Assembly: GCA_001798075.1 (NCBI GenBank)
Contig: MGRG01000014.1
Coordinates: 186,001-250,000 of the forward strand
Source of the DNA: Deltaproteobacteria bacterium RIFCSPHIGHO2_01_FULL_43_49
GTDB taxonomy: Bacteria > UBA10199 > SPLOWO2-01-44-7
Reading direction: 5' to 3'
DNA length: 64,000 nucleotides
Shown one piece after another: positions 27,931 through 29,253 of the stretch. Positions within the stretch are counted from its first letter, which is position 1. Each line of letters starts with the position of its first letter. Below the pieces are notes generated by a model. It was given only the letters and a program-made list of their open reading frames with translations, did no database searches and was not told the origin of the DNA. The position numbers were made by a program, and so were the translations under genes.

Positions 27931-28176
27931 ATGAACCAAAAGAAATTCAAAAAATTGTTCGAGGAACATCGGGATAAAATCCTTGAGGCATGGAATAAAA
28001 TTTCAGATAATGATATGCGCTTTATTGATGGCGATATAGAAAAATTTCTGGAGAAAACCTCTAAACTGTATCAGATCCCTCGGGAAATTATTTTACGAGA
28101 GCTAGACGCCGTGCAGAAAAACATTGATGAAGGGATTGAAACTGACTTTGCCTCTCGCCTGGATCCAACTGAATAA
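27931..28176 (+). CDS. CsbD-like stress protein
   Basis: 81 aa. LFEEHRDKILEAWNKISDND, then MRFIDGDIEKFLEKTSKLYQ, follows the CsbD pattern (K..W.KlTddDl..i.G....L.gkiq..yG). CsbD proteins are small hydrophilic proteins induced by general stress in many bacteria; the biochemical role is unknown. The extra C-terminal helix (REIILRELDAVQKNIDEGIE) is longer than in the core family. Confidence 0.75.
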   Translation: MNQKKFKKLFEEHRDKILEAWNKISDNDMRFIDGDIEKFLEKTSKLYQIPREIILRELDAVQKNIDEGIETDFASRLDPTE

Positions 28177-28189
28177 AATCGTTTGGGCG

Positions 28190-28219
28190 TTGGATTTTGG
28201 AAATTGGTACTTGGAACTT
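28190..28219. repeat. TTGGAA-CTTG simple dispersed repeat
   Basis: Holds GGAAATTGGTACTTGGAAC, close in composition and phase to the repeat inside carA (36039-36072, GGAATTTGAAACTTGGAAC). Such tracts are common genome litter in deltaproteobacteria-like genomes. Confidence 0.5.
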
Positions 28220-28823
28220 GTCTTTGAAAAGCTCTCAAAAAATCGTTTAGGTTGGTGGCTCAAGCGTCTCTCCAGAGTATTTGCGCTAAAGAGTAGGTCG
28301 TTACCCTTTCGGGCCCGCATTCTCTCTTGTTTTTTTAAACTTAAGGTTCGTACGGCCTTAAGCCTTAACTTCAGAGATTTCTACCATCTATTAGCGCGAG
28401 TGGCTTTTGCTTGGCTGGACGGCCAAGCTTTGGTCACTTATCCTCTCCTGAGCTTTCCTTATGACTTATAGGGTTTTTTCCAAAACTCAAGGGATGCTGC
28501 TTCCAACACCTCATCCTCTTTCACCCTTTGTTTAGATATCCATTCCCTAGGGGTTGAATATCTAGTGGATCTTAGAGACTTGCTCTCGCTTCAGATACTT
28601 AAACTCCCTTTTGGAGAGTTCAGGCTCCCTTTTAGCCTTATCGTCCGCTTAACCCTTTTCCTTTAAGAAACAAAGTATTTTTAGTTCCGGGTCCCCCATG
28701 GATTAGGTGATATCACTATCCCTTAATCTATGGTTCAAAATACCTTTATTTCAACCTTGCGGAGAAAAAGCGGCCAGTTCGGCAATGCCACCCCTAAACG
28801 ATTATTCAAAAGCTTGTCAAAGA
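28220..28823 (-). ncRNA. Candidate large structured RNA, ~600 nt, unknown family
   Basis: The two ends pair over 31 bp with no gaps (28220-28250 with 28793-28823). In minus-strand RNA this gives 26 Watson-Crick pairs, 3 G-U pairs and 2 mismatches; on the plus strand the wobbles would be A-C clashes, so the minus strand is the likelier sense. Internal hairpins: 28338-28360 (CTTAAGG/CCTTAAG), 28409-28428 (GCTTGGC/GCCAAGC), 28492-28516, 28535-28562, 28602-28620 and 28622-28638. No convincing ORF lies inside. A terminal-inverted-repeat element is the main alternative reading. Confidence 0.5.
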
Positions 28824-29253
28824 ACTCAATGTTGAGGGTACCTTTCACCATTTCCAAAAAAATCTCGCAATAATTTTTTTTGGACCTGCCCGCAAATGTA
28901 GAACAGGCGCGGAAACATTTTTTGAAAAAGTTATCCACAGGGCATGGTTTTTTTGACTTAAAAAAGAGAACTTAAATTACTTAATAAAAATCAAGTAGAT
29001 GACTAAATGTGTTTTAGTGAATAAGGTGCTTCAGATCATCTAGAACGAAAGCGACAAACTTCATTCCGGTTGCAAACCCAACAAAATAGCCTATTAGACG
29101 GTGAATTGCTCTCACATTAGAGTTATCCTTTCCGCGCTATCGCGCTTCAAGGACTTCCTCGGCCACCCCGCATTTTCTTGAAAGCGCGGGGTTCCCGGCC
29201 TCGGTCGTCGGCCACGTTATACCTAAATTCCGCACTAACTACCTACACTAGAG
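28824..29253. other. Gene-free stretch between RNA candidate and promoter
   Basis: AT-rich to about 29100, then GC-rich with hairpins (CCCCGC/GCGGGG at 29167-29192, and CGCG-CTAT-CGCG). The 14-mer ACAYTAGAGTTATC occurs at 29112 and 29248, 136 bp apart. A 67-codon minus-strand GTG frame (28735-28938) lacks a ribosome site and overlaps the RNA candidate; I do not call it. One DnaA-box-like TTATCCACA lies at 28931. Confidence 0.5.

Follow-up and report, generated by a model that had tools for sequence, protein, structure and literature searches.

To our knowledge, only few large structured bacterial RNAs are known, with OLE, ROOL, and GOLLD as the three best studied. These RNAs form RNA-only homo-oligomers, found to be ordered by cryo-EM, and ROOL can equal 16S rRNA in abundance (PMC12286853). 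Such RNA-only complexes were without precedent. Another related system is the leader/trailer module of pre-rRNA: in E. coli, formation of active 30S subunits requires the leader-trailer helix and is aided by boxA (PMC10250234). Outside rRNA operons, boxA is known from suhB and a toxin-antitoxin gene (PMC5725501). In the literature considered, which covers the field only partially, boxA was found on rRNA and on these two, and none was found on a large orphan RNA.

In this study, we analysed a structured noncoding RNA of about 600 nt encoded on the minus strand (28823-28221) of a 64,000-nt stretch of DNA (the window), which is present as a single copy in the 2.2-Mb genome. In the absence of transcript data, we consider it virtually certain that the locus is a real, conserved, and stand-alone structured RNA. 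With ROOL (PMC12286853, PMC5643018) it shares a size of about 600-660 nt, an ornate fold, the lack of an ORF, and the lack of a known partner. Unlike ROOL, which occurs in phages and near tRNA islands, it is chromosomal, lies among housekeeping genes, and is accompanied by boxA and DnaA boxes. OLE is likewise about 600 nt long with a long elaborate structure and a poorly understood function, but the window RNA has no Rfam match and no conserved adjacent partner gene. GOLLD is also a very large ornate RNA, and some relatives of the window RNA in a second phylum may exceed 1 kb; however, the window RNA matched no Rfam family and no phage or tRNA-island association was found for it. The RNA thus resembles the OLE/ROOL/GOLLD kind but belongs to none of them.

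The resemblance to pre-rRNA (PMC10250234) concerns the position of boxA shortly before a long-range closing stem and the multi-unit arrays with one terminator, whereas the enclosed RNA is unrelated and DnaA boxes are located upstream, which are absent at 16S promoters. The rRNA-type module accordingly consists of boxA upstream of the closing helix and of a long leader-trailer-like helix with compensatory changes, enclosing an RNA that is not rRNA. In contrast to the sites at suhB and the toxin-antitoxin gene (PMC5725501), which are regulatory sites on mRNAs, the window boxA precedes a large structured RNA. The RNA represents a new, previously unlisted family of large RNAs that combines an rRNA-type module with an unusual link to DnaA. 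An original prediction made from the sequence of the window had already read the locus as a large structured RNA; this reading is supported, but boxA, DnaA boxes, tandem arrays, and repeated arms had been overlooked.

Conserved fold of the minus-strand RNA

The following features were assigned to the RNA (positions in the window):

28221..28823, minus strand: structured noncoding RNA, 5′ end near 28823 and 3′ end near 28221 (27-sequence alignment, 83 covarying pairs)
28793..28805, minus strand: closing stem, conserved 5′ arm, pairing with 28239-28251 (helices 1-2)
28239..28251, minus strand: closing stem, conserved 3′ arm, pairing with 28793-28805 (helices 1-2)
28806..28823, minus strand: outer section of the 31-bp stem, 5′ arm, pairing with 28221-28238; not generally conserved
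28221..28238, minus strand: outer section of the 31-bp stem, 3′ arm, pairing with 28806-28823; not generally conserved
28696..28733, minus strand: 5′ domain hairpin (helices 4 and 5), consensus helices, absent in two relatives (L065, L070)
28684..28691, minus strand: conserved CCGGAAC motif with a CCGG palindrome inside, unpaired in the consensus fold
28463..28637, minus strand: arm 1 (helices 6-10), two modules of 4 bp - 3x3 loop - 4 bp and a GGAA-loop hairpin
28267..28453, minus strand: arm 2 (helices 11-19), again with two such modules, additional stem-loops, and a CGAAAG loop; the region of the RNA covered by models R1 and R2

A 31-nt inverted repeat (28221-28251/28793-28823; 84% complementary) was found where the original prediction had placed it, and the proposed pairing of the ends without gaps was reproduced, with 29 of 31 positions pairing in minus-strand RNA if G-U is allowed. 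As a closing stem it is among the best-supported helices, but it had been predicted to extend over 31 bp and only the inner ~13-19 bp are conserved. Compensatory changes, which had been suggested as a check of this stem, are present: helix 2 comprises 11 pairs, is 98% paired, and has two-sided changes in 10 of them.

For the whole RNA, 27 full-length sequences were aligned and an RNAalifold consensus of 83 pairs was obtained. In these pairs 93.9% of the cells are paired, and 75 of the 83 show two-sided changes (0 of 500 shuffles). Two-sided changes were counted in 491 cells (153 in shuffles), and with the partner shifted by one base at most 48% pairing was left. Because the consensus structure comes from the very alignment on which it was scored, it has an advantage over the shifted versions, but an effect of this size far exceeds such a bias. 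Hairpins had been predicted as well, but the count of at least six was too low, since 19 helices are supported. The claimed absence of an ORF needs qualifying, as ORFs of 67-115 aa, attributed to chance, overlap the locus; conservation there concerns the covarying helices and no reading frame.

None of 20 shuffles folds as well as the minus-strand RNA (z = -5.68). The plus strand also beats its shuffles, over a slightly longer stretch, and therefore folding energy alone cannot decide the strand. The decision is based on the consensus pairs, which in the minus-strand reading hold 199 G-U versus 50 A-C cells, and on the direction of boxA and of the terminators in relatives; thus the minus strand is the conserved one.

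A plan of ~4 bp - 3x3 purine-rich loop - 4 bp recurs in four paired regions (helices 6/7, 8/9, 11/12, and 16/17, the last fitting without exact length). Covariance models R1 and then R2 were built for the 3′ domain of the RNA (arm 2) and used to find relatives. The arm-2 model also matches weakly just 5′ of arm 2 in seven RNAs (E = 0.00005 to 0.03), including arm 1 of the window (E = 0.028), and in second-phylum copies it matches beside the main match. These weak matches next to arm 2 suggest that the RNA may be composed of two similar arms, with more arms in the second phylum. For the unpaired CCGGAAC motif, a role in self-association is merely an inference.

boxA, DnaA boxes, and proposed expression

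Upstream of the RNA, three elements are relevant:

28814..28825, minus strand: boxA-like antitermination signal GTTCTTTGACAA, PWM score 15.3, never reached by shuffles; located 5′ of the outer closing stem and overlapping it
28865..28870, minus strand: possible -35 element TTGCGA, recognised by eye from upstream sequences and tentative; TTGCRN in near relatives
28931..28939, plus strand: exact DnaA box TTATCCACA, 106 nt upstream of boxA

The rRNA leaders of the examined genomes carry boxA as GYTCTTTGAAAA, and the 16S leader of the window genome itself has TGCTCTTTGAAAACT. The boxA PWM (maximum score 19.9) was built solely from 16S leaders, and therefore its match at the RNA is independent evidence. 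In the window, the signal starts 23 nt before the closing stem. Before this stem the mean score was 14.4 versus 2.1 in shuffles, and 24 of the 27 copies reached at least 9 bits at a distance of 15-28 nt. Low scores of two copies (L069, L073_2) resulted from a misplaced automatic anchor, boxA being plain by eye; L070 and L076 have only a weak or degenerate signal. As boxA is a short motif and data on binding of Nus factors are lacking, its function is inferred; we regard it as likely that the signal acts as boxA.

Two lineages have head-to-tail tandem arrays, of four (G041) and two copies (G044), in which boxA precedes each copy and the last copy alone is followed by a strong intrinsic terminator. 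From this arrangement it is inferred that an array is one long transcript, which would be antiterminated and cut at each closing stem. At most loci, a terminator is located directly behind the closing stem; for the window copy, no clear intrinsic terminator was found within 130 nt. Just 3′ of the RNA end, where a terminator would be expected, positions 28190-28220 consist of repetitive TTGGATTTTGGAAATTGGTACTTGGAACTTG. Scans of the window with promoter and terminator consensus sequences gave chance level only, and the -10 matching the possible -35 element is weak in the window copy.

The exact DnaA box TTATCCACA occurs only three times in the 252,608-base contig, including the one in the window. 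In the 350 nt upstream of 23 genes of this RNA, 43 matches with at most one mismatch were found versus 2.3 expected from shuffles; the background in the window's own contig is 0.086 per 350 nt, and six 16S upstream regions had no DnaA box. Most boxes cluster at a near-constant position ~100-125 nt upstream of boxA, and they are often palindromic, like TTATCCACAGCTGTGGATAA. No DnaA box at this threshold was found for three of the 23 genes, which all belong to the window's family, and DnaA control is therefore not universal. In related genomes, similar palindromes elsewhere adjoin the dnaA gene (recognised by eye), as expected for oriC. Because DnaA is a transcription factor as well as an initiator (PMC8203912), control of the RNA gene by DnaA is plausible. 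It is unproven, and we would call it quite possible without leaning towards it.

As the probable explanation, we regard the locus as an independent gene that encodes a large structural RNA and has rRNA-operon-like expression; the mature product most likely acts as a scaffold, and its output may be tied to DnaA. Transcription and function are inferred here. RNA polymerase reading boxA would pick up NusB-S10, NusA, NusG, and SuhB, and the Nus-loaded polymerase would resist Rho and internal hairpins and keep hold of the 5′ end until the 3′ arm has been transcribed. Once the ends are joined by the leader-trailer-like closing stem, an RNase III-type enzyme would cut this stem and, in tandem arrays, release the individual units from one another. 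RNA output would be coupled to replication or growth by DnaA bound to the upstream boxes. The mature RNA, with its repeated purine-loop arms and GNRA-like loops, would most likely be an abundant scaffold that self-associates or binds proteins. Taken separately, a self-associating scaffold can only be put forward tentatively, by comparison with the known large RNAs, and oligomerisation would rest on analogy alone.

A further-reaching version appears unlikely at present: DnaA would set transcription, Nus factors would provide antitermination, and the purine-loop arms would assemble the RNA into a structure, RNA-only or RNP, that differs in size through added arms. The sizes behind this idea are ~600 nt in one phylum and possibly >1 kb in another. 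If true, such a DnaA/Nus-controlled RNA machine ties a large noncoding RNA to the control of rRNA and of replication initiation. boxA at the RNA suggests that Nus antitermination serves large RNAs besides rRNA, and the DnaA boxes offer a connection of an orphan RNA to replication control that can be tested directly.

The strongest alternative keeps boxA as real and assumes a large orphan RNA with another biochemical role, e.g. a catalytic one, the DnaA boxes being a titration site or a relic without a role in expression. Clusters that titrate DnaA are known from other bacteria, the boxes have been lost from some members of the window's family that retain the RNA, and the oriC-like palindromic sites beside dnaA in several genomes indicate that DnaA sites serve other ends. 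However, the distance between DnaA box and boxA is near-constant despite different gene neighbours between families, and the second phylum has a box as well (L064); both observations indicate selection on the pair. We rate this alternative as rather unlikely, well behind the explanation given above.

Class, distribution, and gene neighbourhood

Except for two tRNAs, the whole window had no match in Rfam. The best hit of the window RNA was Ocean-VII with E = 0.3, far below the family cut-off, and its relatives matched no family either. This Rfam scan included the ROOL, GOLLD, and OLE covariance models, and neither the window RNA nor its relatives matched these or the rRNA models; the 16S gene is located elsewhere in the genome. 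The Rfam search had been proposed along with the original prediction, whose exclusions by eye stand: canonical tmRNA and RNase P RNA genes are found elsewhere in the genome, which ruled out both identities, and 6S RNA and group II introns are excluded solely via the empty Rfam scan. For the group II intron, the scanned neighbours were also not reverse transcriptases. In one relative, L045:2487-2613 gave a below-cut-off match to the animal microRNA model MIR9486 (E = 4e-6), which presumably reflects a hairpin arising by chance, or else a repeat that was not recognised. Having strong comparative support and no Rfam match, the RNA is an additional large-RNA family, for which approximate ends and ready covariance models are available.

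By DNA search, five further genomes of the window's family were found to have near-full-length relatives (67-75% identity), and partial matches were found in another family. With R1/R2, the RNA was detected in 24 of 46 genomes of the phylum, which has received little study; these belong to 12 families (labels of the tool). In the 22 negative genomes a more sensitive search was also empty; since 22 of 46 genomes are without a detectable copy, the RNA is not essential across the phylum. Distant copies were found by covariance model in two of five genomes of a second phylum (E = 6e-15 to 3e-11), and several hundred further genomes yielded no additional lineage. Among the distant relatives in the second phylum are L064 (G223:C61, RNA strand) and L061; L064 has an exact DnaA box upstream, is possibly >1 kb, and tentatively, by single-sequence folding, contains many modules of 4 bp - 3x3 loop - 4 bp. 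In two further distant copies, L062 (G385:C202) and L063 (G385:C21), both in one genome, no clear boxA and no convincing closing stem were found.

The RNA tree follows taxonomy, and all families represented by at least two copies are monophyletic on it. Phage and plasmid records did not contain the RNA, nor did viral contigs (pattern plus covariance model); four viral contigs with a short-pattern match did not fit the covariance model and were discarded as chance matches. By sequence comparison, the pattern of inheritance is vertical and chromosomal, with losses.

A domesticated mobile or phage-derived element, i.e. a ROOL/GOLLD-like cargo, an ORF-less intron, or a transposon-associated RNA, would fit the patchy spread (24 of 46 genomes), the tandem arrays in one family, and a truncated copy (L054 in G042). 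It is contradicted by the single copy in its own genome, the vertical tree, the carA-carB synteny in six genomes, the housekeeping neighbours, and the lack of matches in phages, plasmids, and viral contigs, and is very unlikely. Multiple copies of a transposable element, which would have refuted the original prediction, were not found; with one genomic copy, synteny, and an RNA tree that is vertical family by family, a transposable element was ruled out. The truncated copy L054 (G042:C103:3986-4098) is internally deleted, has an unrelated 5′ side, and is likely a pseudogene.

In six genomes of the window's family, the RNA gene lies behind the carA-carB region in the same orientation, and in another family (f11) it lies between an endonuclease/exonuclease-type gene and a hisG-like gene (by eye). 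The neighbours of the RNA gene in the window are housekeeping genes. A comparison between families, without an OapA-profile scan of the relatives' neighbours, revealed no shared neighbour, and an association with prophages or tRNA islands as for ROOL and GOLLD was not found in neighbours, phage, plasmid, and viral contigs. Convergent to the RNA, an 81-aa ORF without Pfam match is located at 27931-28176 of the window, and similar ORFs are present at the same place in L080 and L083.

The same-strand position downstream of carA-carB in the window's family is what would be expected if the RNA acted in cis as the leader or trailer of a neighbouring gene; as the neighbours differ in every other family, and as closed ends, boxA, and terminators right after the closing stem in most loci mark a separate unit, we consider this reading scarcely tenable compared with a free RNA. 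Equally improbable is an element acting at the DNA level, i.e. a secondary origin or a DnaA-titrating locus with the RNA signal as a by-product, for which the upstream DnaA boxes, some of them palindromic pairs, could be cited, but the G-U pairs kept on one strand (199 versus 50 A-C) need RNA, there is no sharp GC-skew switch at the locus, and dnaA-linked sites exist elsewhere. For the same last two reasons, the oriC-like palindromes adjoining dnaA in relatives and the missing sharp skew switch, an oriC reading of the locus was set aside.

The intergenic region upstream of the RNA gene also contains a sequence (29116-29221) with a copy of ~106 bases and 89% identity on the same contig (82463-82566). 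Weaker copies exist as well, indicating a dispersed repeat.
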